Shown here: piece after piece, positions 7,314 through 63,716 of the stretch | How positions within the stretch are numbered: position 1 is the first letter of the stretch | How the letters are laid out: every line of letters starts with the position of its first letter | Origin: Verrucomicrobiota bacterium | GTDB lineage: Bacteria; Verrucomicrobiota; Verrucomicrobiia; Opitutales; UBA953 | Length of the DNA stretch: 64,000 nucleotides | Assembly (NCBI GenBank): GCA_026397955.1 | Contig: JAPLTV010000016.1 | Coordinates: 1-64,000, forward strand | Reading direction: 5' to 3' | Made by a program: the position numbers and the translations under genes | The notes under the pieces: generated by a model | Told to the model about the DNA's origin: nothing | Seen by the model: only the letters and a program-made list of their open reading frames with translations | Databases searched by the model: none

Positions 7314-8432
7314 TTATTTGGCCTTACCGAGGAGGTATGCGGGATTCAATTTTTGGAGGGGCTTGGGAAGGAAAAGGCCGTCTTTGCGGATCACCTGGCC
7401 ATCGAAACGGATCTCGCCGCCGCCGTATTCGGGGCGCTGGATGCAGACCATGTCCCAGTGGATGGACGAATGGTTGCCGTTGTCGGTGGTCTCGTAGCAC
7501 TTGCCGGGCGTGAAGTGGAAGGAGCCCGCGATTTTCTCGTCGAACAGGATATCCTGCATCGGGTTGAGGATGTGCGGATTGAAGGCGATCGCAAACTCGC
7601 CGATGAAGCGGGCGCCGCCGTCGGTATCGAGGATCTCGTTGAGGCGCTTGGTGTTGTTCGAAGTGGCCTCGACGATCTTGCCCTTGCGGAAGACGAGGCG
7701 GATGTTCTCGAACGAGACGCCTTGGTAGATGGTCGCACAGTTGTACTGCAGCACGCCGTTGACGGAATCCTTAATCGGTGCGGTGAAGACCTCGCCGTCG
7801 GGGATGTTGTATTCGCCGCCGCAGGGGATGGCGTTCATGCCCTTGATGTTGAACTTCAGGTCGGTGCCCTGGCCGACGATGTGGACCTCATCAGTCTTCA
7901 TCATCGCCTGCTTCAGGGCTTCCATGCCCGGGACCATGCGCGAGTAGTCGAGCGTGCAGACGCGGAAGTAGAAGTCGGCGAAGGCTTCGGTGCTCATCTT
8001 GGCCTGCTGGGCCATCGACGAGGTCGGCCAGCGGAGGACGACCCACTTGGTCTTGTTGACGCGGTGATCCAGCACGGGTCGCATGAGCTCTCCGTTGAGT
8101 TTGGCCTGAGTGGCCGGGATATCGCTGCCTTCGAAGATGTTATCGGAACCGCGCACGGCGATGTAGGCCTGCATCTTCTTCATGCGGGCAAGCTCGTGGT
8201 CGGCAGCCAGCTTGAACTGTTCCTTGGTGCCGCCCTTGACCATCTCGCGGCCGACTCGGGCCTTGTGGAGGTTCACCATCGGGGTGGCACCGCGTTCGCG
8301 GGCGGCCCGGATGAGGGCGATGACGAAGTCTTCCGGCACATCGTGGGCGTCAATGAGCACGCTCTCCCCCTTCTTGAGGCGGGTTGAGAAACCGCAGAGC
8401 ACGTCGGCGAGCTTTCCGTAGCGAGGATCCAT
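7314..8432 (-). CDS. Aminopeptidase, M29/AmpS-like
   Basis: [29 protein letters not shown] start (ORF track start at 8957 is too long); [11 protein letters not shown] and EFAIAFNP motifs. Confidence 0.88.
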
Positions 8433-8519
8433 GATGCGGGTAAGTTGCGACCCCCTCGGCCCCTTTCCAAGCGTGAAAGGAGCGCTTGCGATGCCGCGGG
8501 CGCCACGCACGGTGTCCGC

Positions 8520-8894
8520 ATGTCTGATTCTTCGCCTCATGCGCGCGCCCTGGCCTTGGCGGATGAGGCGGCGTTTGACTTTGCGATGGGCGACGAAGCG
8601 GCGGCGTTGACGAAGCTGCAGGCAGCGGTGACCACCGATCCGGCCTGCTTCGAGGCGTGGCTGGCCAAGGCCGAAGTCCACTTCGCTGCTGGTCAGTATG
8701 ACGAAGCCCTGGCTGCCGGCGAACAGGCCCTCACGCTTCGCCCGAAGGACATCCACATCCACACCTCGATGTCCCGCATCTGGATGGAGCGCGGCGACAA
8801 GACCAAGGCCGAGCACCACGGTGCCCAGGCCCGCATCCTCGGCTGGGGCGATCAGTTGAAGGAGCCGGAAGGCAAGCAGCCGGGGGAACTCTGA
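8520..8894 (+). CDS. Small tetratricopeptide-repeat protein
   Basis: [36 protein letters not shown]...TPR-like helices. Confidence 0.75.
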
Positions 8895-8897
8895 ACG

Positions 8898-9000
8898 AGA
8901 GGGGTTGGGGCAGGGGTAGGGGTAGGGGTAGGGGTAGTTTGAGAGGCAGGAAAACAAGGTGTCGTGCCTGCCCCGCCCCCAACCCCTATCCCTACCCCTA
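8898..9000. repeat. G-rich and C-rich hexamer-periodic arms forming an imperfect inverted repeat
   Basis: GGGGTTGGGGCAGGGGTAGGGGTAGGGGTAGGGGTAG, then GGCAGG-loop-CCTGCC, then CCCCGCCCCCAACCCCTATCCCTACCCCTAG. Confidence 0.85.
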
Positions 9001-9038
9001 GCGTTTAACTTGTCCCACCCGTGAGACAGGCTGTCCCG

Positions 9039-9067
9039 AGCAAAACGGGGAACATTGACCCGTTTGC
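9039..9067. promoter_or_regulatory. Candidate operator dyad 1 upstream of groES
   Basis: GCAAAACGGG (9040-9049), 9 nt spacer, CCCGTTTGC (9059-9067). Confidence 0.45.
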
Positions 9068-9107
9068 GGGGTCGAGAGGGGGTAGTAGCCCAGAAAAACC
9101 CCTAAAT

Positions 9108-9132
9108 CGTTTGCTAAACCTCAGCAAAACGG
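9108..9132. promoter_or_regulatory. Candidate operator dyad 2 upstream of groES
   Basis: CGTTTGCT (9108-9115), 7 nt spacer, AGCAAAACG (from 9123); same half-sites as dyad 1 in inverted order. Confidence 0.45.
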
Positions 9133-9197
9133 CTTTGGCATCTGTTCTGCAAAGTCGCAGACGTCCCCAACGACCACCCTCTACCCAAATACCCACC

Positions 9198-9503
9198 ATG
9201 GCTAAAAACACCAAACCCAGCGTCAAGCCCCTCGGCGACCGCGTCCTCCTCCAGCGCATCGAAGAAGCTGAAGAAATCAAGGGCGGCATCATCATCCCTG
9301 ACTCCGCCAAGGAGAAGCCGCAGGAAGCCAAGGTTATTGCCCTCGGCACCGGCGCCCTCGACAAGGACGGCAAGAAGGTCGCCTTCAACGTTAAGGTCGG
9401 CGACAAGGTCCTCGTCGGCAAGTACGCCGGCACCGAAGTGAAGCTCGACGAAGTGATCTACCTCCTCCTCCGCGAAGAAGAGATCCTCGCCGTCATCGAA
9501 TAA
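9198..9503 (+). CDS. groES: Co-chaperonin GroES
   Basis: [41 protein letters not shown]...[24 protein letters not shown]; start at MAKNTKPS. Confidence 0.98.
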
Positions 9504-9533
9504 TCTCACCCCTAACTCTCAAACCATACCACT

Positions 9534-11159
<1,626 letters not shown>

Positions 11160-11181
11160 GGTCGCTGACAGTCGTTTGAAC

Positions 11182-11209
11182 AACGGCGCCCATTTGGGCG
11201 CCGTTTTTT
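11182..11209 (+). terminator. Rho-independent terminator after groEL
   Basis: AACGGCGCCC-ATTT-GGGCGCCGTT followed by T-run. Confidence 0.95.
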
Positions 11210-11348
11210 GTGCCCACCTGGCCGCCAGGGCGGCGCACCTTTCATTTTTACGACAACCGCCCCACCAGGGAGGGCTTTAAGCACTAGGTTTCTTGTCTTC
11301 GTCGTATTGCCATGGGCGCGGGGGTTGTTTGTCTTTTCCCATACCCCT

Positions 11349-14276
11349 ATGCGCCTCCTCGTCGCTTTCCTCTCGGTCTGTCTCTCCGTCCTCGCCTCCG
11401 CGGCCCCCTCCGTCGGCCCGATCCGCGTCTTGTATCTGGACGCCAGCGGCGCTGAGCAGTCCGCCGTCGGTCCGCTGCACTCGCTGATGGCCGAGCTCGG
11501 CCGTGACGCCATCTGGTTCGACTATGCGACGGGAGCCACGCCCGACGCCGCGACGCTCGAACGCTACGACGCCCTGGCGGTGAAGCCGAACGCCGATGGT
11601 TCGCCCGCCCTCAACACTTCGATCAAGCTGCCTAACGGCGCCACGGTCGCGGTGATCGTCATCAAGGCCGACACCACTCCCGCCGGTTTCCGCTCCGAGC
11701 TCGAGGCCGCGCTGTTTCCCGACCGCAAATCCGCCTGGCGGAAATTCCTTGCGCAGCGCGAACCCGAAGTCCGCGAGAAGAATGGCAACGTGGCCAACTA
11801 CGAGAAACGCCCCGAGCCGCTGACCTTCCAGAAGCCTTATTCCGTCAAGGGCAGCATGGAGCGCACGCAGGTCCCGGCGGACATGAAGCTGGTGCTCTTC
11901 GCTTCCGAGCCCGACATCACGAAGCCTATCGCGTTCGCTTGGGATGCCCGCGGCCGCCTTTGGGTCTGCGAGACTTCCGATTATCCGCACGGCGTGAAGG
12001 AAGACCAGCAGCAGGGCAACGATCGCATCAAGATCTGCGAAGACACCGACGGCGACGGTAAGGCCGATAAGTTCACGGTCTTCGCGGACCACCTGAACAT
12101 CCCCACGAGCCTCGTCTTCGCCAACGGCGGCGTGATCGTCGCGCAGGCTCCCAACTTCGTCTTCCTCAAGGACACCGATGGCGACGACAAGGCCGACGTG
12201 CGCCAGGTCATCCTGACCGGCTGGGGCATCCGCGATACCCACGCCCAGACGAGCAGCCTCTCCTATGGCTATGACAACTGGCTACGTGGCGCGGTTGGCT
12301 ACAGCGGCTTCGCCGGCGAGGTCGGCGGCGAGAAGAAGAACTTCGCGATGGGCAGCTATCGCTTCACCGCGGACGGCGCCAAGCTCGAGTTCCTCCACCA
12401 GTTCTCGAACAACACCTGGGGTTACGGCGCCAACGCCGTCGGCGACTCCTTCGGTGGCACCGCCAACAACGCTCCAATTTTCTTCGGCGGTATCCCCGCC
12501 ACGGCCTGGGCCAAGGGTTCGCGCGGCATGTCCGCCAAGAAGATCAACGTCGTCGACAAGGCGCATACGATTACCCCGAACTTCCGTCAGGTCGACGTGA
12601 TGGGCGGCTGGACCGCCGCGGCCGGCTCCACCTTTATCTACTCCGCCCAGTTGCCTCCGCGCCTGCAGGGCAAAGCGATGGTCTGTGAGCCGACGATGAA
12701 GCTGATCGGTCTCATGGACGTCCAGCCTGACGGCGCCGGCTACGTGGCCAAGGACGCCTACAGCCTCGTTGCTAGCTCCGACGAATGGATGTCGCCCGTC
12801 TTTGCCGAAGTTGGCCCGGATGGCGCCATCTGGTTCGCCGACTGGCAGAACTTCATTATCCAGCACAACCCGACCCCCAGCGTCGGTCGCGGCGGCTATG
12901 ACGCCAAGACTGGCGTCGGTGGCGCGCACGAGAACGACCTACGAGACCACGCCCGTGGTCGTATCTACCGTCTCGTTTGGGACAAGCCGGGCTCCGTCGC
13001 CAAGGCCGCCCAGGGCGACTCCGCCGCCGAGCTTGTCGCCGGTCTTTCCGGCAGCACCCAGTACGGCCGCCTCCGCGCCCAGCGCCTGATTGTCGAAGGC
13101 AAGAAGCAGGACCTCGCTCCAGCCCTTCGCGACCTCGTGACGAAGTCCTCCGCTGACATCGGCGCCATCCATGCTCTCTGGTCCTTGCAGGGCCTCGGCG
13201 AGCTCGACGCCGCCACGCATCAGGCCGCGTTGCTCTCCTCTTCGGCGGAGCTTCGCCGCAACGCCATCCGCGCCCTCGGCGCGGACGATTCCGCTCAGAA
13301 GCTCTTCTTTGGCGCCGGCGTCGTCGCCGACAAGGCCCCCGCGAATCGTCTGGCTGCTTTCGTGAAGCTCGCCGATTTCCCGACCACCCCGGAAGTGCAG
13401 ACGCTCGTCCGCCAGCTCTCGGCTGATGTCGCGGTGAAGTCCGATGAATGGCTCTACGAGGCTTCGCGTCTCCTCGCCAAGAAGCATAAGACCGCCACTT
13501 TCGTCGAAGGTCCGAACCTTTTGCCTAACCCCGGTTTCGAAGAGGTCGCCGACGACAAGAAGACGCCGGTCGGCTGGAAGCGCCGTGATTACGGCAGCAA
13601 ACCCGGCAATAAGGATGCGCAGTGGGGTATTGTCATCGATCCGAAGAACGTCCGTTCCGGCAAGTATGCGATGCGCGCCATCACCCGCGCCGACGCCGAC
13701 ACGAGCTTCTTCGCTGACGTCGCATTGAAGCCGAATACCGAATATCGCCTCAGTGCCTGGATCAAAACCCACGCCATGCGCGGCAAGGCTAGCCTCAATG
13801 ACCACATCGGCCGCGCCGAGACCGAGAAGGTGACCGCTCGCGAGTCGGACTGGGCCGAGGTCGAGGTCGTCTTCAATAGCGGTAAGCACCCCAAGGCCAG
13901 CATCAACCTCCTGCACGTCGCCGTCGGCGATTCCTTCTATGACGACGTGAAACTCTGCGAGCTGACGATGGCTGGCGAAGCTCCGGTGACCGCCGGAGTC
14001 CCGGCTCGCGGCGAGCAGATCTTCTGGAAGCACCCCGTCGCCGCCTGCGCGATCTGTCACATGGTCGGAGGGAAGGGCAGCGCCATCGGTCCCGCGTTGG
14101 ACGGTATCGCTACGCGCTCCACGGCGGCCTACATCCAGGAATCCCTGCTCGAACCCAACAAGGTCCTCGCGAAGGGTTTCGAGAAACTCGGTGTCTCCCC
14201 GATGCCGCCCATGGGACTGATTCTCAAGCCGCAGGAGCTCGAGGACGTGAAGGCCTTCCTTCAGACCCTGAAGTAA
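11349..14276 (+). CDS. PVC-type haem-binding CxxCH protein (dehydrogenase-like beta-propeller, carbohydrate-binding-like domain, C-terminal cytochrome c)
   Basis: Signal peptide at MRLLVAFLSVCLSVLASAA; SEPDITKPIAFAWDARGRLWVCETSDYPHG; NLLPNPGFEEV...SGKYAMRA; C-terminal CAICHMVGGKGSAIGPALDG. Confidence 0.88.
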   Translation: MRLLVAFLSVCLSVLASAAPSVGPIRVLYLDASGAEQSAVGPLHSLMAELGRDAIWFDYATGATPDAATLERYDALAVKPNADGSPALNTSIKLPNGATVAVIVIKADTTPAGFRSELEAALFPDRKSAWRKFLAQREPEVREKNGNVANYEKRPEPLTFQKPYSVKGSMERTQVPADMKLVLFASEPDITKPIAFAWDARGRLWVCETSDYPHGVKEDQQQGNDRIKICEDTDGDGKADKFTVFADHLNIPTSLVFANGGVIVAQAPNFVFLKDTDGDDKADVRQVILTGWGIRDTHAQTSSLSYGYDNWLRGAVGYSGFAGEVGGEKKNFAMGSYRFTADGAKLEFLHQFSNNTWGYGANAVGDSFGGTANNAPIFFGGIPATAWAKGSRGMSAKKINVVDKAHTITPNFRQVDVMGGWTAAAGSTFIYSAQLPPRLQGKAMVCEPTMKLIGLMDVQPDGAGYVAKDAYSLVASSDEWMSPVFAEVGPDGAIWFADWQNFIIQHNPTPSVGRGGYDAKTGVGGAHENDLRDHARGRIYRLVWDKPGSVAKAAQGDSAAELVAGLSGSTQYGRLRAQRLIVEGKKQDLAPALRDLVTKSSADIGAIHALWSLQGLGELDAATHQAALLSSSAELRRNAIRALGADDSAQKLFFGAGVVADKAPANRLAAFVKLADFPTTPEVQTLVRQLSADVAVKSDEWLYEASRLLAKKHKTATFVEGPNLLPNPGFEEVADDKKTPVGWKRRDYGSKPGNKDAQWGIVIDPKNVRSGKYAMRAITRADADTSFFADVALKPNTEYRLSAWIKTHAMRGKASLNDHIGRAETEKVTARESDWAEVEVVFNSGKHPKASINLLHVAVGDSFYDDVKLCELTMAGEAPVTAGVPARGEQIFWKHPVAACAICHMVGGKGSAIGPALDGIATRSTAAYIQESLLEPNKVLAKGFEKLGVSPMPPMGLILKPQELEDVKAFLQTLK

Positions 14277-52373: not shown

Positions 52374-53939
52374 ATGGCCGCCTGGTCTCACCGGGCCGCG
52401 GACGCCGGGCTTGCCCGACGGATCGCGGCTGCGCTGGGGGTTTCCGAACCCCTAGCCACAGTCCTCGCCCGCTCCTTCGCGGACGAGGCCGAAGCGGAGC
52501 GTCATCTGCTCGTCCACTTCCTCCGCCGCCTCGGCGCGCACCCGGAATATTTCGTCCCTCGCCGCCTCGAGGAAGGTTACGGGCTTTCGATGGCCGCGCT
52601 CGAACGCGTGCTCGCCGAAGCGAAGCCCCAGCTCTTCGTTGCCCTCGATTGCGGCACGAACTCCAAGCCAGAAGTCGACCGACTCCGCACTGAAGGCGTC
52701 GACGTCATCGTGGTGGACCATCACGTGGCCAAGGAAACCCGCGTGACCTGCACGCTCGTCAACCCGCGCGTCAACGACGCCGAGGATGCCCCGTGGCAGA
52801 CGCTTTGCACCGCCGGACTGGTCTTCAAACTCGTCCATGGCGTGCTGAAGGTCCTGCGCCTTGCCGGCGACGAACGCGGTACAAGCATCGCGGTAAAGGA
52901 TTACCTCGACCTCGCCGCCCTCGGCACGATCGCCGACCTGGTGCCTCTCCGCACAGAGAATCGCATCCTTGCCGCCCATGGCCTCAAGGCCCTCGGCGAA
53001 GCCCGCCGTCAAGGGGTGCGCGCCCTCATCGCCGTCAGCGGTATGGAGCCGGGTGGGGTGCTTACCTCGGTCGACGTCTCTTATCGCATCGGTCCGCGGA
53101 TCAACGCCAGCGGCCGTCTCGCCGACGCCTCGCTACCGTTGCGTCTGCTGCTCTCCGACGATCCGGCTGACTGTCTGCGTGACGCTGCGCAGCTGGATGC
53201 CATCAATCGCGAACGCCAGGAGATCGACAAGAAGGTCACCGAAGAGGCCATGGCCCAGGCCAAGGCGATGGGTGACCTCGCCGGTTATGTCGTCCATGGC
53301 GACTGGCATCCCGGAGTCGTTGGCATCGCCGCCGGCAAGATCTGCCGCGCACTTGATCGTCCCGTCATCGTCCTCGGGAAGGAAGGGGAGAGCGCCAAGG
53401 GCTCTGGCCGCAGCGTCCCAGGTACCAATCTCGTCGAAGCACTCGGGGCCTGTGCCGACCTGCTCAAGACTTACGGCGGCCACCCGATGGCCGTTGGTGT
53501 CTCGCTCAATGTCATCGACGTCGAAGCCTTCCGTGCGCGCTTCGCCGCCGCCGTCGAAAGCCAGCGTCTCGCCGGCGTCGTCCAGGCTGATGGCCGTGAC
53601 ATCGATATTGCCCACTGGATCAAGCCTTCCGAGGTGACCGACCAGCTGCTCGACGATCTCGACCTGCTACAGCCGTTCGGCGAAGGGAATAGCGAGCCAG
53701 TCTTTGGCTTCAAAGGATTCGTCTTCGACCGTCCGCCCACGCCTTTCGGCGAAGGCAATTTCCGGCACCAGCTTCCGCTCAGCGGCGGCCGCCGCCTGAA
53801 CTTCGTCGCCTGGCGCATGGCTGACCGCATGCCGGAACCCGGTAAGGCGATCGAGATGGCCGTCAAGCTGCAGTGGAACCGCTGGCAGGGACGCCGTATC
53901 CCGCAGGCCGAAATCCTCGACTGGCGCTACGCCTCCTGA
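52374..53939 (+). CDS. recJ: RecJ-like single-stranded-DNA exonuclease ORF lacking DHH motif I
   Basis: VALDCGTN, VVDHHV, LAALGTIADLVPL, GGHPMAVGVSL present; no DYDxDGxxS segment. Confidence 0.9.
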   Translation: MAAWSHRAADAGLARRIAAALGVSEPLATVLARSFADEAEAERHLLVHFLRRLGAHPEYFVPRRLEEGYGLSMAALERVLAEAKPQLFVALDCGTNSKPEVDRLRTEGVDVIVVDHHVAKETRVTCTLVNPRVNDAEDAPWQTLCTAGLVFKLVHGVLKVLRLAGDERGTSIAVKDYLDLAALGTIADLVPLRTENRILAAHGLKALGEARRQGVRALIAVSGMEPGGVLTSVDVSYRIGPRINASGRLADASLPLRLLLSDDPADCLRDAAQLDAINRERQEIDKKVTEEAMAQAKAMGDLAGYVVHGDWHPGVVGIAAGKICRALDRPVIVLGKEGESAKGSGRSVPGTNLVEALGACADLLKTYGGHPMAVGVSLNVIDVEAFRARFAAAVESQRLAGVVQADGRDIDIAHWIKPSEVTDQLLDDLDLLQPFGEGNSEPVFGFKGFVFDRPPTPFGEGNFRHQLPLSGGRRLNFVAWRMADRMPEPGKAIEMAVKLQWNRWQGRRIPQAEILDWRYAS

Positions 53940-54947
53940 TTACTTCGCGCCCGCGGCTTCCGCTGGACGTCGATCTTCGATGGTCTTGCTGCGGATTGCA
54001 TGAGGCTCGTCGGGAATCGGGAGGAGAAAGACGAGCGATCGTAGGTTCGGTTGCTGCAGCGAGCGGTAGACGTGGCCGAGGTCATAGCCGTCGTCGGCCT
54101 TCGTGTGGATTTCGGCCAAGGCGTATTGATGGTCCGACGTCGGATTTTTGACGACGGTACGTGCGTTCACCCGCAGCGTGACCTTGCGCTCGGGGTAGCG
54201 TAACTCGACGTCCTTACCGGTGAGGTTGATGAATTGAAGGGAGCCGTAAGGGAAGGTGCCCTCGGTGTCGTCCAAGGCGAGGATTTGGTGTCCGTTGCCG
54301 CCCGAAGAGAAGAGCAGCAGGTATTTTCCGTCATTTTGAAAGGTGTATTCAGCCGTGGGCGTAGACGTCGGCCTAGGCGCCTTGCCGCCTTTCTTTTTGG
54401 GCGCTTTCAGCGGCTCTTTGGGCGCGGATTCCAAGCGCAGGATCAGGAGATTGGCTTCTTCGGTCTCTTTCGATGCTGAGGTAAGGATACCTGAAAGTTC
54501 TTTGAGCCTTTCGTTAAGGGCATCGAGCTGAGCCTGGTCTCCGGGGGACGGTTTGCGGGCGCGCTCGGAGGTCTGCAGGTTGAGCGTGTTCAGCAAGCGG
54601 GTGATCTGGGCGAACTCGTCCGACGCCTGCAAGGTGACCGCCTGGGCGCGGCGGAGGCGCTGGATGGCCGCCGTCATGTCGGGTGAGAGCGGTCGAGGAT
54701 TCAGCGTCTCTTCGTCGATGGTGATGAAGCGTAGCGTATGAGCACCTTTGTAGGTAATCTCCGCGGTGAAGGCGTTGTTCGGGATGCTGAGCCGTCGCAA
54801 CGTCTCGCCCTCAAGGTAGCTGGCGCCGGGGATCGCCTCATCAAAGGCGAGCGCGCGGAAACGGATGCTCAATCCGGGCTTGTCGGCGGTCTGGGCGAAG
54901 AGGGTCGCCGCGAGGAGCGGCCAGAGAAGGGCGGTGCGGGCGATCAT
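53940..54947 (-). CDS. Exported partner protein X2 of prepilin-like module 2
   Basis: MIARTALLWPLLAATLFAQ signal; GTFPYGSLQFINL...TIEDR shared with 58883..59698. Confidence 0.72.
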   Translation of the reverse strand: MIARTALLWPLLAATLFAQTADKPGLSIRFRALAFDEAIPGASYLEGETLRRLSIPNNAFTAEITYKGAHTLRFITIDEETLNPRPLSPDMTAAIQRLRRAQAVTLQASDEFAQITRLLNTLNLQTSERARKPSPGDQAQLDALNERLKELSGILTSASKETEEANLLILRLESAPKEPLKAPKKKGGKAPRPTSTPTAEYTFQNDGKYLLLFSSGGNGHQILALDDTEGTFPYGSLQFINLTGKDVELRYPERKVTLRVNARTVVKNPTSDHQYALAEIHTKADDGYDLGHVYRSLQQPNLRSLVFLLPIPDEPHAIRSKTIEDRRPAEAAGAK

Positions 54948-57900
54948 AGGTCCTTCTGCGTGAGCGTGCGGGTGGAGAGGATCACGAAGCGCCGGCCAAG
55001 GGTCCGGTTGATCTGGTTGAGCAAGGGGTTGTGCAATTGTCCATCGGTGAGCTTCGCCACTTCGGTCTCGGGCGGTTGGCTGGGGTCGCAGAACTCCGGG
55101 ATGCGTTGCACGACGGCTTCGATCCAACAGCCAGACAGGGTGCGGGTCTGATCGAGCGGGTCCGTCGCTTCTCCGTAGCAACGGATGACAAAGGTGTCCG
55201 AGCGGGTGCTGAGCGAGGAGCCGACTGCCTCTAGGATGTCTGACTGTAGCAGTGAGGTCGGGGCGGCGCGGAGCGAGTGTCCTTTGCTGGAGTTCGTCCG
55301 AGGGTCGGTCGCGATGACGTTGGTCCGCATGTACGTGTAAGGCACCAAGCCGGCAACGGCCGGATTCGTGTCAGGATTGCTGGTGGTGATGGGCGCGAGC
55401 TGCGCGTCCGTGTAGGCCGGCGCCGAGGTCATCGGAGAGTTACGGTTCGAAAGATTGGCTCCGTCGACGTCGGCTCGCAGGATGGCATTCTGGAGGCAGC
55501 CCTGCCACGCGACCTGGTTGGGATACGCGCCGCAGTTGAATCGGTTCACGAACTGGGCCAGGCCGATGTAAGGAAGAGGGACCTCAACGCCGCGGTTCTT
55601 GATCACGTAGTGGACATCCGAAATTCCGACCTTGATGCCGTATTGGTAGCGATGGTTGTAGCGGATGCGCATACGGGTCTCTTCGACGATGGATTTCGCC
55701 AGCAGTTTGATCTGCGCATCGTCCAGGGTGGCCAAACCGGTCCACGTCTTCTTGTCGTTGAGGGCGGTCTTGTAATTGTAATCCGCGGAATCGGCGCGGG
55801 TGGCCCGGGGGAAGCGGGCGTTTTTGTCGGTGCCGGGCAGGAGTTCGGTGGCGGAACCCATCGCGTTACGCTTGGCGCTGGCCAGCAAGGCGGCCCAGGC
55901 GTCGACCGAGGTGCTGTTCACGTTGAACGTGCCGTCTGACAAGATGGTTCCCGCGATGCGCCGATGGTCGGCGAGCATCGCCCGGACGGTGAGCGGGTCG
56001 CGGGTGGCGTAGAGTTTCGTGCGCGGATTGGCGAGCCGGCCCGTGCCGGCGGCGAATTCATCGAGCACCGCGGCTAAGGTCTTGGTCTCCGTGACGACCT
56101 TGCTACGACTGATGATTGGGGCGGCGCCCGAAAGGAAGAAACGGTCGTAGATTGCCGAATTGGCCATCCAGGCATGGTCATGGTTAGCGACACCGCAGAG
56201 CGAGTCCGTCACATAGGTCATGCTGTTGTAGGTATTTAGCGGCGAGAAGCTGTTACCAATCTGGAAGAGCGGCTCCTGGTCGCGCAGGCCGAAGTTGGCG
56301 TGTGTGTACTGGGCAAGGGAAAGCGGGGGCGCGAACGGCACGCTGGTATAGACGGCCGAGGTCACGCCGCCGAGGCCCGACGTCACGCTGAGGCCTCCGT
56401 AGGCCTGCCAGCCGGCGATGGCTGGCGTCTCGATGACCTCGTTCCAGTTATTGGCCGGGCGCTGCATCATCTTGTAGCTGGGCGACGTGAAGGCATAGCC
56501 AGCCGGTGTCGCCGCGCTCGCCATACCGTTGGCATCGCCGCGGGTCACGGCCGCCATGGGGTTCGAATGTGAGAAGATCGGAAAGGGCAGGGTGTCCTTG
56601 GGCCAGCGGAGGTTGAAGTCATGGATACCCAGGATCCTCGGCTCGGACTTGCTGTCGGGCAGCGTGATGCCTGATGCGCCGAGCGCGAGGGAGGTCGCGG
56701 CGCCGCTGCGGCTGAAATCCGTCGCGGTCAGCGCATTCAGTTCGCTGCAGGCGTTGAAGGCGCCGCTCAGCGAGCCGTTGGAGGTTCCCGTGATCCGGTC
56801 GCCCGGCCAGGAGGTCAGCAGCACGCGGGCTTCATAGGAGCCAGCATTCAGCAGGGAGACCGTCACGTTCTCTCCGTTGGCGCTGGCCGCCACCGTCACC
56901 GGATTGCCGTCGGGGTCGGTGCAGGGCATCCAGAAGCCGCCGCGGGTATCGAGGCCCACGATTGCGTTGCCTGGCGTGCGGGTGAACGGCCAGGTGCTGT
57001 CATAGGTGGGTGCCACGCCGACTGCCGGGTAGGAGTAGACGCGGAACTCGCCCGGTAGGAGCACGTTGTCGACGCCGATGTTCATCCGGAAGTTCTCCAC
57101 CGCGTTCGAAGTCAGGTCGACGGCCCGGGCGAGTTCGCCGATGGTCTTGGTCCAGCTCTTGGCGGGGGTCTGGAACTGCACGGTCAGGCTATCCCAGTTG
57201 CGGAACGAGAGCCGCATGGCGGTGAGTTCCAGTGAAGAACTGTCGCGGGCTAGTCGCAGCGAGACGTTGTAAGGATTGTGGAGCACGACGATGGGCGTGA
57301 CGGTGAGCCGCAACGCGCCCCCGCCGCCGTCCTGAAGGCCCCAGACGGTCAGTTGTCGGCAGACGTAGGGGGAGACCGCCACCTTGGTCGGCTTGGGCGG
57401 ATAAAGCCCGTTGATCGTAGTGGCGTTGAGGAAGTCGCCGGTCGACTCAGCGCGGTTGTAGAAGCGCCCATAATGGCTGCGGTCGCCGTAGGCAGAGGCT
57501 GAAAGCGCGGCCGCGTTGGGGAAGTGCGCCCGGGCGTTGAGTTCGGGCGCGACCGGATTGAACCAGTTGAGTTCTTTGTAGAGGCGATGGTAGCTGCGCA
57601 GGGATTCCCAGGTCGGGCCGCGCGTGGTGCCGCTGTTCGAGAAGGAATAGAGCGGCGCGATATTACGGGAGGCGCCGTCATGCCTGATCGTCACCTTAGC
57701 GTCGGCGTAGGCGCTGCGTACGCTGCTACCGTTCGGATGGAAGGTGTACGTCACCCCGGATAGCTGCGCGCCGGCGGAATCCTTGGGGGCGGTGCCTTCG
57801 CTGAATTCGGATAGCTTCCATTCGGCGTCCGTCTTCTCGAAGGCCAGCGAGAGGTCTACTTTGAGCCCGCCCCAGAGCGCGTCGCTGTTTACCCCGCGGG

Positions 57901-58801
57901 ACCAGAGGGTGGCTTCGGTAAAGAGGCGCTTCGCGCGCGTCGGCGGGGAGGTCTCCGTCAGCCCGAGCCCGGAGTTCGTCAGGAAGGGCAGCTCCCTCAT
58001 CTGCGTGATGCGTGGGTCGATGCCGCTGAGGGGCATGTTCTCCAGCCCGGCCAGGATGCCGGTCCCCGAGCGGGCCGTACCGCGCAGCGCTTCCTGCTGT
58101 AATTGGGGTGTCGTCGTGCCCGTGGGCGGGGTGAGCCGCGGGTCGGTGAGGTTGATGCGCGCTTTGACGCCCTCGTCGCCGATCCAGTAGCAGTAGGAGC
58201 CGTTCGCATCGATATCGGGGAGGGCGATGCGCGGCAGGCTGATGCGGCCGTCGGGTTTCCCGGGGCTGGTCGAGCTCGCAAGCTCTGGGCCGCTGGCGCA
58301 GGTGTCGCCGACCAGCGGTACGAGCAGGTTGGCGGGGATGGAGAAGTCGTTCTGCCAAGGCACCCATTGGTCGACGTAGAAGTCAGCCTGTCCGTGGAGG
58401 TTCGCCGACTGCGTGCCCGGCAGCTGGTCGTGTCGTCCGCTGATTAGCCACGAGGGCGGCTGTAACTGCTGGTCGCTGCGCCAGACGCCGGTCCACAGCG
58501 GGTTGCGGATGGTGTTCCAGGTCCAGCCTGGTTGCGTGGTGTTGGCCAGGATGTCGGCCCGCGCGGTCATGCGCCGGTCGGGACCCGCTTCCTGCTGTAG
58601 GTGTGCGAGGGCGAGGCGGAGCGCGACGGCCGCGTTGAGTTTCGCCCGCAGGTAGTTCTGGTGCTGCGCCGAGAGGCGCGACTCGATGGTCACGAACGAA
58701 GCCACCGTGATGACCGTCATCAGCACGATGGACATCACCACGAGCGACAGCACGAGGCTGAAGCCGGAGCGGCGGCGCGGCGTCACGGAGTCGGTGGGCA
58801 C
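54944..58801 (-). CDS. Giant prepilin-like protein (1285 aa), Verru_Chthon cassette protein A-like
   Basis: SGFSLVLSLVVMSIVLMTVITVASFVTIESR; GTFNVNSTSVDAWAALLAS; paralogue of 59688..63716. Confidence 0.82.
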   Translation of the reverse strand: MPTDSVTPRRRSGFSLVLSLVVMSIVLMTVITVASFVTIESRLSAQHQNYLRAKLNAAVALRLALAHLQQEAGPDRRMTARADILANTTQPGWTWNTIRNPLWTGVWRSDQQLQPPSWLISGRHDQLPGTQSANLHGQADFYVDQWVPWQNDFSIPANLLVPLVGDTCASGPELASSTSPGKPDGRISLPRIALPDIDANGSYCYWIGDEGVKARINLTDPRLTPPTGTTTPQLQQEALRGTARSGTGILAGLENMPLSGIDPRITQMRELPFLTNSGLGLTETSPPTRAKRLFTEATLWSRGVNSDALWGGLKVDLSLAFEKTDAEWKLSEFSEGTAPKDSAGAQLSGVTYTFHPNGSSVRSAYADAKVTIRHDGASRNIAPLYSFSNSGTTRGPTWESLRSYHRLYKELNWFNPVAPELNARAHFPNAAALSASAYGDRSHYGRFYNRAESTGDFLNATTINGLYPPKPTKVAVSPYVCRQLTVWGLQDGGGGALRLTVTPIVVLHNPYNVSLRLARDSSSLELTAMRLSFRNWDSLTVQFQTPAKSWTKTIGELARAVDLTSNAVENFRMNIGVDNVLLPGEFRVYSYPAVGVAPTYDSTWPFTRTPGNAIVGLDTRGGFWMPCTDPDGNPVTVAASANGENVTVSLLNAGSYEARVLLTSWPGDRITGTSNGSLSGAFNACSELNALTATDFSRSGAATSLALGASGITLPDSKSEPRILGIHDFNLRWPKDTLPFPIFSHSNPMAAVTRGDANGMASAATPAGYAFTSPSYKMMQRPANNWNEVIETPAIAGWQAYGGLSVTSGLGGVTSAVYTSVPFAPPLSLAQYTHANFGLRDQEPLFQIGNSFSPLNTYNSMTYVTDSLCGVANHDHAWMANSAIYDRFFLSGAAPIISRSKVVTETKTLAAVLDEFAAGTGRLANPRTKLYATRDPLTVRAMLADHRRIAGTILSDGTFNVNSTSVDAWAALLASAKRNAMGSATELLPGTDKNARFPRATRADSADYNYKTALNDKKTWTGLATLDDAQIKLLAKSIVEETRMRIRYNHRYQYGIKVGISDVHYVIKNRGVEVPLPYIGLAQFVNRFNCGAYPNQVAWQGCLQNAILRADVDGANLSNRNSPMTSAPAYTDAQLAPITTSNPDTNPAVAGLVPYTYMRTNVIATDPRTNSSKGHSLRAAPTSLLQSDILEAVGSSLSTRSDTFVIRCYGEATDPLDQTRTLSGCWIEAVVQRIPEFCDPSQPPETEVAKLTDGQLHNPLLNQINRTLGRRFVILSTRTLTQKDL

Positions 58802-58882
58802 CTCATTATTCTGCGGCCATCCCCGAGGCCCTCAAGTCCGGACGGCTCCTGTTATATGAAAGTTATGTGACGCCCCGCCGGC

Positions 58883-59698
58883 TTACTTTTCGCCCTTCGG
58901 TGCCGGCGGCTTCTGGGCTAGGCTGCGCGCGGGCGGGGGGCGGTCTTCGATCACCTTGAGCACGATACGGCCGAGATCACCGGGACCGGGTGAGAGCATG
59001 TAAAGTTTGCGGGTACTCTCCATGTGGAAGACCCGGCCGGAATAAGCGGGGAGCTCGGTCTCGTTGATGCGGCTGGCAATCTGCAGGTCGTAGTAGTCGT
59101 TATCCTTGCTGCCTGGTCGGGCTACCTTGGAGCTGCCGGCAGGAATAAGCTGGTCGCCCGAGGGGAGTTTGATCGTCAGTGGGAAACTGCAGAGGTTGAA
59201 GTAGCGGTTGCTGCCAGGGGGGAAGGAACCTGGGATGTCCTGGATGGCGGTGATCCCGTTATCCTTGCCGGGGTTTACCATCAGGATGAGGTGGAGCTGC
59301 CCTTGTTTTGCCGGCAGGTCGATCCAGGCAATCGGGGGTTTTCCGGCCGAAGCCAAAGCGTGCGTCGGGGTGGCCGCCTTGATGCCGCGGATCGGTCGCT
59401 TGACGACTTCGGTCTTCTCGCCGGTTTTTGGTACAGGCTCCCCAGGAATCTCGGTGGCGGCCAATTCGATCAATTCCATCCGGGCTGGGCCGCGATAATA
59501 GAACGCGTCGGTGAGCATGTCCGTGGGGATGACGAGTCCGTTGACCTTCTTGTCCTGCATGATGCCGATCCCGGCCAGAGGCTTGTTGGCCGAGATGAAC
59601 TTGATATAGGCTTCGACGATGGGGCCGTCCGCGGCCTGGGCAGAGCCGCAGGTGAGGAACAGGGTCGCGAGCAGGATTTTTCCTAGGTCAGATCTCAT
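58883..59698 (-). CDS. Exported partner protein X1 of prepilin-like module 1
   Basis: MRSDLGKILLATLFLTCGSAQAA signal; GSFPPGSNRYFNL...VIEDR. Confidence 0.72.
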   Translation of the reverse strand: MRSDLGKILLATLFLTCGSAQAADGPIVEAYIKFISANKPLAGIGIMQDKKVNGLVIPTDMLTDAFYYRGPARMELIELAATEIPGEPVPKTGEKTEVVKRPIRGIKAATPTHALASAGKPPIAWIDLPAKQGQLHLILMVNPGKDNGITAIQDIPGSFPPGSNRYFNLCSFPLTIKLPSGDQLIPAGSSKVARPGSKDNDYYDLQIASRINETELPAYSGRVFHMESTRKLYMLSPGPGDLGRIVLKVIEDRPPPARSLAQKPPAPKGEK

Positions 59699-62600
59699 CG
59701 GCTTTGAGCCAGCGCATTGAGACGATCTTGAAGCGGCGGCCGAGCACATTATTTACGGGGGTGAGCGCGGTGCTCAAGGTCGCGTCGGTCGCCGCCGACG
59801 GGGCGATCTTCAGCGGCTTCGGTGCGCTGTTACCCGTTTCGGCCGCATTGGTGGGATCGACGAACTCAGGGATGCGCTGGACGACGACCTCCATCCAGGC
59901 CGAACCAATCTCACCGTTGTCGAGGCCGGCTTCGCCGTAGCATCGAAGGGTAAAGGTATCGGAACGGGTGGCTAAGGCGGAGCCGAGGCTTTGGAGAAGG
60001 TCAGATTGCAGGAGGTTGCCGGGGGCGCCCATGGCGGTGTGCGAGCGGCTAGTGCCGGTCTGCGCGGTCGTCTCGATGTTCTCGGGATTGGGGAACCAGC
60101 TGGAGGTCGCCGTCTTGAGCGAATTTTGGGTGAGTTTGCGGTCGGCGGCATTGGCGAAGAGGCGGTCGCTCAGCCCGGCGTTATAGGTCTGGTCGGCGCG
60201 GAAAATCGCCGCCTGCAGCGCACCGCAACGGCTGGCCCAGGTCTCAGGCGTGAGGAAGCGGTTGATGAATTCGGAAAGACCGAGGTAAGGAGTGGTGGCC
60301 TTGGCCAATCCGCCGAAGAGTCGGCTGCCGGGAGCCTTGGCGAGGTCGCGCTCGCTGCGCGCAATGAGGGCGAAGCGTGCCTTGTTCTCCGCGACGATCG
60401 CGTTGGCGAGGTTGGCGATCTGCGTATCGCTGAGGTTGGCGAAGCCGGCCCAGTTGCTGGGGTCATCGGTGTTGCCAGCGGCGATCGCGGCGGTGTCCTT
60501 GGTCAGCACGCGAGGGAAGCGGGCATTGTTGGTCGAAGACGGGCTGGAACTCGTCTTGTCCGCCACCGCGAGGTTCTTGGCGCTGCCGAGGAACGCGGTC
60601 CAAGCAGTCACGGAGGTGGAGTTGACGTTGAAGGCGCCCTTGTTGAGGAGCACGGCGGCGGAGCGTCGGTAGTCGGCGAGGGCGGCCGCGGTGGCCATGG
60701 CGTCGCGGCCGCTTTCCAGGGAGAAGCGCGGGTTGTCTAGCGGCATGCCGTTATTAACGAAATCGCTGATGACTTGGGTCATCGACTTCTTCTCGTTGGG
60801 GTCCGTCGGCGGGGTGGAGGTCTTGCTGGCGATGGTGACGGGGTCGGTCGGCGTGGGTGTCGTCGGGGTGATGACGCCGCCGGTGCCGGATTTCATCCAA
60901 GGCGCGAGGCTCGAAAGGAAATAGCCATCCCAAAGCGTGGCGTTGAGGAGGTAACTCTGGTCGAACTCGGACCAGTTCGAGCCGTTGTCCTGTAGCGCTT
61001 TCTTGGCGTCGACCAGAGGTGAGGCGAAGCTGTTTCCGATGCTGAGGAGCGGTTGCTGATCGCGGATACCAAAGTTGGCGTGGGCGTATTGGGCCAACGA
61101 GACGGGCTGGACGAGGGGGATTTCGGCGAGGATTACGCGCGAGTCTCCGGTCGCGGCGGTGGCGGAATTACCGCCGAAGGCGAGCTTACCGGCGCCAGTG
61201 TTCTCCAGCACGTTTTCCCAAGCTCCGGTCCGGACGCTGAGCTGGTAGCTGGGCGACGACCCGCGGGCGCCGGTCGAGCCGACGCGACCGGCGGCGCTGG
61301 GCTTCTGGACCGCCGCCATGGGGTTCGAATGTGTGTAAGTGGCGTAGGGCGCGGCGGCGTGGTCGGAGGTCTTGGCCGAGACGTCAATGACTGTGACGAT
61401 GTCCGCGGGGAGGGGAGGGGAGTCAGCTGTCGGGTAAGGGTTGCGGCCGTCCCATTCCGGGATGTCCGGGCGGGGATACTTGTTCTGCACGTGGCGCCAG
61501 CTGAGGAAGAATTTCTCTCCAGGGCTCGGGTACTTTATCTGGCCGATATCGTTGAAGGCGATTTCGCTGGTCTCGCTCGTCTTGGCGAGGAAGTCACTCT
61601 TATCGGCCGAAGGATTGCTCTTGGCGTTGGTGTTGAGTTCGAGCTGGTCTCCCGGCCAGCAGCTGAGCGCGTGACGAACGCGAAGGTTGCCGCCGGGTAT
61701 GATCTCGAGCGCAATCGGATTATCGATGTTGAAGGTCAGCGTGGCGGCTTCGCCGAAGTTCCAGTCCCAGACGTTGTCGCGGTAGCCGCCCTGGATATTG
61801 TAGGTGTTATCGAGGACGATGGACTTCGCCCATTCGCCCATCTTCGGTTCGCAGGAGAAGACGCGCATCTCGCCCGGCTCCAGTGTGATGCTGGCACTGG
61901 CGTCCTTGGTCAGGTAGAAGCGGAAGGTGTCGTCGTTGTCGCTATCCGGGGCTTGGCGGGTGAAGAAGTCGGTAATCTTGGTCTCGTAGACGTAGGGATT
62001 GGCCAGCGTGCCGGTCTTGTACTGTTTGAAGCGGAATTTCCAGTCGGCCATGTCCGCGAAACCGATGGCCGCGGCGTAGGGAGTCTTGTTGGCGCCGCCG
62101 CTGGCGGTACCCGGGGTCCAGGTCATGCGGACGTTGAACGGATTATGGATGACGACGATGGGGGTGATGTTGAGGCGGATGTCGACCCACTCGTCCCAGC
62201 TCCAATAGGCGAGCTTGCCGCGGCGGATCAGCGTCCAGTCCCAGTACTGCATCTTGTTCACTGTGAAGGCGAGGGTGACGCGTTGCAGGTAAGGCGTGGC
62301 GGCGACGTTCAGTGGGCGCGTGACGATGTTATTCGTGTCGCCGTTGCGGTAGTCGTTCGCGTTGGGGTTATTGTTGCTCGAGGCCGGCAGGTCGCCGTCG
62401 TAGACGTCCGAGTAGCCGTAGAGTCGGTTGCGCAGGCTGTTGTTGGGCAGGCCGCTGCTGGCGGGCGTGCCGCTAGGGTGGGCGGCGGCGACGTTGGGCC
62501 AGAGCGTGCGGGCGCGAAGGGTAGGGGTGCCGGTAGAGCGGGCGTTCGAGGTGGCGCTGCCGGTCCAGCCGAGCTGCTTGTAGAGGCGATGGTAGTCGCG

Positions 62601-63716
62601 CAGGGCCCACCAGGCGGGGCCGCGGACCTGGCCGTCGCTGACGGTGCGGCTGAAGACCGGCGCGGCGGTGGTCTTCTTGGAGCCTTGCATTAGCACCGGC
62701 ATTGCGGTCGCCTCGACGCCTTTCTCGGTCGTCGTGGCGGCGGCGCCGGCGACGCCTTGTCCGAATTCGGTAGCCGCGAACTGGGCATCGCTGAGTTCGA
62801 AGGCGACGGAGAGATCGCGCTTGAGGCCTCCGTTGAGCGAGTCGGCGAGCACTCCGGCGGAAGTCGCGGTGACGTCATGGAAGAGCAGGCGGACGTTGGG
62901 GGTGGAACTGCCACCAGTGGTCTTGGAGTAGCCGCTAAGGAGCGGCAGCTGGCGCACGGAGTCGAGGCTGGTCAGCTGCGTGGGGTTCGTCAGCAGGCTG
63001 AGCCCGTCGACCAAGGAGTAGCCGGGCGTCAGTGGGCTGCGCAGTGAAATCATCTGGTCTGCGTTGTTCGTATCATCCGGAGTGCGTACATCGCGCAGGT
63101 TGATGCGGGCCTTGATGCCTTCGTCGCCGATCCAGTAGGCGTAGTTGCCTTTGATGCGGTCGTCCGGGAGCGCGACCTTGGGGAGGGCGACGAGCCCGCT
63201 GGGGCGGCTGCCTTCCGCCGCTGCGGCGCTGCCGGTGCCGACGAGGTTCACCATTGACGCGACGTCGGGATTGTAGCCGGTCTGCCACGGGGCCCAGTAA
63301 CCCGCATGGTAGTCGGGCGTGGAGCCGGTCTGATAAAGAGAAAGGGACTGCGTGCCGGCCGGTTGGTCGGCGCGTCCGGAAACGAGCCAAGAGGGCGGAA
63401 GGTCAGGAAGATCGGTGCGCCAGATGCCGGTCCACATCGGATTACGGACCGTGCTGGCGGTCGCGTCGGGTTGCGTGATGTCAGCCCGCGCGGTGGCGCG
63501 TCGGTCGGGCCCGGCCTCCTGCTGGAGGTGCGCGAGGGCGAGACGCATCGCGACGATCGAGTTGAGTTTAGCGCGCGTCGCCAGCTGCTGGTTCATGACC
63601 GCGCGAGATTCGACCGTGATAAAGGCGGAAACGGTGACTAGCAGCATGAAGATTCCCGCCATCACCGTCAGGGACAGGATGAGGCTGAAACCGGGGCTTC
63701 GCTTGCTGTGTTTCAT
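59688..63716 (-). CDS. Giant prepilin-like protein (1342 aa), Verru_Chthon cassette protein A-like
   Basis: PGFSLILSLTVMAGIFMLLVTVSAFITVESR; GAFNVNSTSVTAWTAFLGS; blocks shared with 54944..58801. Confidence 0.82.
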   Translation of the reverse strand: MKHSKRSPGFSLILSLTVMAGIFMLLVTVSAFITVESRAVMNQQLATRAKLNSIVAMRLALAHLQQEAGPDRRATARADITQPDATASTVRNPMWTGIWRTDLPDLPPSWLVSGRADQPAGTQSLSLYQTGSTPDYHAGYWAPWQTGYNPDVASMVNLVGTGSAAAAEGSRPSGLVALPKVALPDDRIKGNYAYWIGDEGIKARINLRDVRTPDDTNNADQMISLRSPLTPGYSLVDGLSLLTNPTQLTSLDSVRQLPLLSGYSKTTGGSSTPNVRLLFHDVTATSAGVLADSLNGGLKRDLSVAFELSDAQFAATEFGQGVAGAAATTTEKGVEATAMPVLMQGSKKTTAAPVFSRTVSDGQVRGPAWWALRDYHRLYKQLGWTGSATSNARSTGTPTLRARTLWPNVAAAHPSGTPASSGLPNNSLRNRLYGYSDVYDGDLPASSNNNPNANDYRNGDTNNIVTRPLNVAATPYLQRVTLAFTVNKMQYWDWTLIRRGKLAYWSWDEWVDIRLNITPIVVIHNPFNVRMTWTPGTASGGANKTPYAAAIGFADMADWKFRFKQYKTGTLANPYVYETKITDFFTRQAPDSDNDDTFRFYLTKDASASITLEPGEMRVFSCEPKMGEWAKSIVLDNTYNIQGGYRDNVWDWNFGEAATLTFNIDNPIALEIIPGGNLRVRHALSCWPGDQLELNTNAKSNPSADKSDFLAKTSETSEIAFNDIGQIKYPSPGEKFFLSWRHVQNKYPRPDIPEWDGRNPYPTADSPPLPADIVTVIDVSAKTSDHAAAPYATYTHSNPMAAVQKPSAAGRVGSTGARGSSPSYQLSVRTGAWENVLENTGAGKLAFGGNSATAATGDSRVILAEIPLVQPVSLAQYAHANFGIRDQQPLLSIGNSFASPLVDAKKALQDNGSNWSEFDQSYLLNATLWDGYFLSSLAPWMKSGTGGVITPTTPTPTDPVTIASKTSTPPTDPNEKKSMTQVISDFVNNGMPLDNPRFSLESGRDAMATAAALADYRRSAAVLLNKGAFNVNSTSVTAWTAFLGSAKNLAVADKTSSSPSSTNNARFPRVLTKDTAAIAAGNTDDPSNWAGFANLSDTQIANLANAIVAENKARFALIARSERDLAKAPGSRLFGGLAKATTPYLGLSEFINRFLTPETWASRCGALQAAIFRADQTYNAGLSDRLFANAADRKLTQNSLKTATSSWFPNPENIETTAQTGTSRSHTAMGAPGNLLQSDLLQSLGSALATRSDTFTLRCYGEAGLDNGEIGSAWMEVVVQRIPEFVDPTNAAETGNSAPKPLKIAPSAATDATLSTALTPVNNVLGRRFKIVSMRWLKADEI

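Follow-up and report, generated by a model that had tools for sequence, protein, structure and literature searches.

A tandemly repeated gene pair for a giant GspK-like prepilin and an exported partner in Verrucomicrobiota, a candidate tip module of a type II secretion-like pseudopilus

One K subunit is the norm in type 4 filament systems. In the DNA analysed here, a stretch of 64,000 nucleotides from a freshwater Verrucomicrobiota bacterium (the window), a unit of two genes encoding a giant K-type prepilin (A) and an exported partner (X) is present twice in tandem on the minus strand, which raises the question of whether the two proteins belong together and what use a genome might have for several such pairs. 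The four open reading frames are present with the order, strand and sizes that a first-pass annotation had given them: A1 (1342 aa, 59688..63716), X1 (271 aa, 58883..59698), A2 (1285 aa, 54944..58801, starting with GTG) and X2 (335 aa, 53940..54947). X1 has its length from an ATG, with an alternative upstream start giving 288 aa. A1 and X1 overlap by 11 nt and A2 and X2 by 4 nt at the A2 stop, while 81 nt separate X1 from A2. X2 abuts a convergent recJ-like frame whose stop lies at 53939. The neighbours of the tandem are housekeeping genes, with secDF and the convergent recJ on one side and a methyltransferase and an oxidoreductase on the other (names assigned by eye), and the same flanking genes enclose the tandem in another genome of the genus (G102). 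A search of the region against Rfam gave no match, and promoter and terminator scans of it returned nothing informative. A third module of the same genome is located on another contig (C107; A of 1985 aa, X of 298 aa), bringing its A-X modules to at least three.

The module is truly duplicated. A1 and A2 share 33% identity over a full-length alignment of 1428 columns (E 6e-178) that contains the collinear motifs quoted in the earlier annotation, and X1 and X2 are 24% identical (E 4e-10) and align collinearly in another segment as well (E 9e-6); X2 belongs to a type of X that has additional sequence inserted in its middle. In trees, genes of the first and of the second module group apart throughout the genus, each in its own clade; at one locus the order is reversed. 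The tandem duplication therefore predates the genus, and both copies have been retained.

What kind of protein is A? Neither A1 nor A2 matches a Pfam or NCBIfam family, and sequence searches of A and X against Pfam and PDB gave nothing useful. The N-terminus of A1 carries a prepilin cleavage site and hydrophobic helix (G9 followed by FSLILSL...; 63606..63692, minus strand) with no glutamate at +5, a residue missing from all 48 parsed A members; absence of this glutamate is a trait of GspK. Among 12 A relatives, seven match the GspK model NF037980 (best E 3e-6) and six match TIGR02600 (best E 2.7e-5, below the cut-off). Profile comparison of the A N-terminus using hhalign yields a probability of 97.7 with TIGR02600 and 87.7 with GspK; beyond the N-terminal helix the similarity to the GspK profile is insignificant. 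The structure predicted for a 1126-aa A relative (pTM 0.81) combines a long N-terminal helix with a large insert and C-terminal strands. When this model, from a protein about 26-29% identical to the window's A, was searched with Foldseek in place of the window's A itself, GspK (3ci0_K) ranked first of 350,542 PDB chains, although weakly (E 0.036, prob 0.18). Based on the missing glutamate, the GspK and TIGR02600 similarity of relatives, the weak fold match and the K position that A takes in the operons described below, A can be classed as a giant minor pseudopilin of the K type (GspK-like), as had been proposed. It differs from the GspK of type II secretion systems (T2SS) in being three to five times larger and in having no match to the T2SSK domain PF03934, which is matched nowhere in the source genome. 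PF03934 matches in frames of 700-1355 aa were considered as further giant pseudopilins and rejected; by eye, those fetched look DnaE- or Tex-like, and the matches are presumably due to a helix-hairpin-helix motif.

The first-pass annotation had also pointed to Verru_Chthon cassette A (TIGR02600), but membership of A in that family is not supported: A1 and A2 do not match the model, whose curated cut-off is 332.3 bits, and the source genome contains no match at all. The two families do have features in common, both being giant K-type prepilins with a common N-terminus followed, apparently in the same order, by a DE.(K).IN motif and a motif in the strands near the C-terminus. Beyond the N-terminus, hhalign aligns the DE-KIN and C-terminal segments collinearly at weak probability (10-37), with YWVGDEGVKARINL in A corresponding to FWTDDESTKININTA in TIGR02600. 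In A1 this motif reads WIGDEGIKARINL (63096..63134), with W, DE and KA invariant in the alignment, and in A2 WIGDEGVKARINL (58148..58186), where the A1/A2 and wider alignments agree with hhalign. The motif FNVNSTS (60612..60632 in A1, 55907..55927 in A2) is conserved between the two copies and invariant in alignments of 12 and 52 members. The C-terminal strands are RSDTF.LR.YGE...W.EVVVQRIPEF in A1 (59853..59966), collinear with the TIGR02600 C-terminus and with counterparts in the relative's predicted structure, and RSDTFVIRCYGE...WIEAVVQRIPEF in A2 (55094..55204), recovered in the alignments and by hhalign. Judged by sequence, A would be a remote relative of TIGR02600 that falls outside the family at its cut-off. 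The gene neighbourhoods differ as well: TIGR02600 proteins are found with B (I-like), C (J-like) and D (H-like) subunits and without X, and the cassettes examined in one genome (G066) are of the A-I-J-H type, again lacking X.

The partner X matches no Pfam or NCBIfam family by sequence. A hydrophobic N-terminus is present in all of 60 X proteins and a signal peptide in X1, consistent with the export proposed earlier, while a lipobox occurs in few. The AlphaFold2 model of X1 (pLDDT 87.7) consists of two beta-sandwich domains following the signal peptide, with fold-level matches to the extracellular tandem Ig-like domains of PepT and to viral DUF4397 proteins, the best match in the viral library. 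The DUF4397 likeness is one of fold, with no sequence match to the family model in the 60 X proteins. According to this prediction, X is secreted, is built of beta-sandwich domains in tandem and matches no described Pfam or NCBIfam family. Identity with Mul1B (NF052542) was tried and rejected: a single X reaches E 0.057, an X profile does not retrieve Mul1B, and Mul1B matches lie at other loci. One sub-threshold Mul1B-like match outside Akkermansia (E 2.3e-9, contig C36 of the source genome, 50567-51061) is likewise not an X.

The pairing of A with X had been described as unfamiliar, and in the literature we searched no paper on it was found; as a local oddity, it does not hold up, since the pairing is phylum-wide and not peculiar to the source genome. 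When 85,462 species genomes were scanned, at least 538 relatives of A emerged, and among the matches listed, those whose title names a group are from Verrucomicrobiota. In the 75 loci kept, from other Verrucomicrobiota, X adjoins 69 of the 72 complete A genes (68 by script plus one, L168, by eye). X was found in 22 of 145 sampled Verrucomicrobiota genomes, mostly draft metagenome-assembled genomes, and all 22 are among the 37 that have A. The gaps from A to X are mostly -11, -4 or -1 nt. Each X gene fetched from the genus adjoins an A, except for three, each of which comes second in an A-X-X series. That X always follows A is true only in part: X lies upstream of A in some lineages, and A occurs without X at L075, L155, L158 and, for one A, L212. 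In an Akkermansia-like genus A stands alone, with weak X homologues unlinked to it. Some Verrucomicrobiota genomes have more than a dozen copies of the unit. Several unusual loci were seen along the way. At L075, an A of 1422 aa without X (7940-12208) lies between dnaB-like and ssb-like genes; several of the loci L134, L136, L137, L138 and L139 have two X genes in series after a very large A (about 1465 to 2015 aa); and in one member of the genus A is split into three frames (L125, 4292-8786, the same region as L195), either a pseudogene or an assembly error.

The two proteins also share an evolutionary history. A mirror-tree comparison of 71 A-X pairs gave a correlation of 0.885, against a null maximum of 0.177. 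Since paralogous modules share a genome, exchanging X within a locus controls for species history; in none of 18 loci did a swap of X between the paired modules give a better fit, and random swaps within loci reached at most 0.858. The mirrored trees indicate that X co-evolves with its own A, and together with adjacency, translational overlap and co-occurrence across genomes they bear out the suggestion that the two belong together. Neither of the outcomes named in the first-pass annotation as speaking against the module, X homologues found apart from A or paralogues lacking significant pairwise similarity, came about.

If A is a K-type pseudopilin, where are its other subunits? The absence of cassette partners B to D reported for the window was confirmed there and in the remainder of the contig, which ends at 68,079, but not for the genome, since another contig carries an orphan G-H-I-J cassette of B/C/D-like genes. 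In Opitutaceae-like genomes, A-X closes a pseudopilin operon of overlapping genes with A at the K position, as G-H-I-J-A-X (G018, L244), H-I-J-A-X (G091, L245) or G-G-H-I-J-A-X (G140, L250). At the window locus no G-H-I-J precedes A, and A-X modules are detached from GHIJ in this genus, a difference from GspK to which the near-constant company of X may be added. The orphan cassette of the source genome (contig C53, 15102-18694, L259) is complete and has no K, as is the one in G102. Outside the genus, its subunits are at every position closest to the GHIJ of A-X operons, and farther from the H, I and J of T2SS, from the TIGR02600 cassette and from E. coli. The source genome also has T2SSE-type ATPases, and G102 an ordinary T2SS locus (D-E-F-H-I-J-K-L-M) with a K of normal size.

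The likeness of the orphan GHIJ to A-X operons, together with the presence of T2SS genes, makes one shaft with several tips the most economical reading. We therefore consider it somewhat better than an even chance that the A-X gene pair encodes the tip of a pseudopilus resembling that of type II secretion, with exchangeable tips on a shared shaft; of the two roles suggested in the first-pass annotation, tip and cargo, we favour the tip. The prepilin helix of A would seed and cap the filament, and the very large insert between this helix and the C-terminal pilin strands would display a variable head. X, exported through Sec and folded as a tandem beta-sandwich, would bind the head of the A with which it is paired. 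G, H, I and J, the shaft subunits, would come from the single orphan cassette, common to all A-X modules of the genome, and the tandem A1-X1/A2-X2 would provide a choice of two tips whose divergence is older than that of the genus.

The modules of larger genomes are found near carbohydrate-utilisation genes, so the head is probably specific for particular glycans or for glycan-acting cargo. The neighbours at a hand-picked set of A-X loci outside the genus include sulfatases, GH10, a rhamnosidase, a carbohydrate esterase and sugar transporters; the window locus has housekeeping genes only. Of 46 X loci in three genomes chosen for their many X copies, 22 have a LacI-family regulator no more than 8 kb away, compared with 5.4 expected (p about 2e-9), an association that may reflect shared accessory regions. 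One study describes a PulG-like pseudopilin within an alginate operon and counts 67 pseudopilins of this kind in a single genome (PMC13274419), and a type IV-like pilus has been proposed for glycan attachment in Akkermansiaceae (PMC13174399). A-X resembles the MUL1 and MUL2 systems of Akkermansia in that pilus- or secretion-like machinery of Verrucomicrobiota is proposed to handle glycans (PMC13174399), but differs in its parts, X not being Mul1B and MUL2 consisting of a PilM-type protein with an archaeal-type pilin. Taken together, the regulator, the neighbours and these papers favour glycan-linked tips.

Other readings of the pair have to be weighed against the tip module. X could serve its own A in the periplasm as a dedicated chaperone or assembly factor and stay outside the finished filament, a role in keeping with a signal peptide followed by two beta-sandwich domains, with the lack of a lipobox in most X and with strict one-to-one co-evolution and tight gene overlap. 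However, the best folds found for X are those of PepT and viral DUF4397 and no known pilus chaperone, some A genes do without X, and to our knowledge type 4 filament subunits do not normally need a dedicated periplasmic chaperone; we regard this reading as unlikely. It is more doubtful still that A-X re-specifies the ordinary T2SS, A replacing the standard GspK for particular cargo enzymes and the orphan GHIJ being unrelated. Such a T2SS does exist in the genus, modules lie among CAZyme and sulfatase genes in relatives, and the alginate-operon pseudopilin offers a parallel, but A-X operons bring their own GHIJ, to which the orphan cassette rather than the T2SS HIJ is closest, and the T2SS has a K of its own. 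Least probable is a free-standing adhesin or receptor pair without a filament, A being membrane-anchored by a borrowed prepilin-like segment, as the very large heads, the distance of many A-X loci from any GHIJ and the weak GspK similarity past the N-terminus might suggest, since the G-H-I-J-A-X operons and the orphan cassette speak against it.

If the tip-module reading is true, a multi-copy, co-evolving K+X module found across a phylum would imply that the tip of a filament for secretion or uptake can be replaced, and hundreds of giant hypothetical genes in consumers of algal polysaccharides and mucin would gain names and testable roles. A more far-reaching form, which we put forward tentatively as the less probable, has one GHIJ shaft serving a repertoire of individually regulated, glycan-specialised A-X tips that can be exchanged, with an inverted headless copy in Akkermansia that could, through inversion or gene conversion, bring about a change of tip. 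In the Akkermansia-like genus, a full-length A lies opposite a headless inverted copy of A, the inverted repeats being 97-100% identical over 1.8-3.1 kb (L272 8697-16203 in G113; L240 6587-13731; L273 6648-14144; L274 7377-14771), an arrangement that could possibly act as an inversion or gene-conversion switch.
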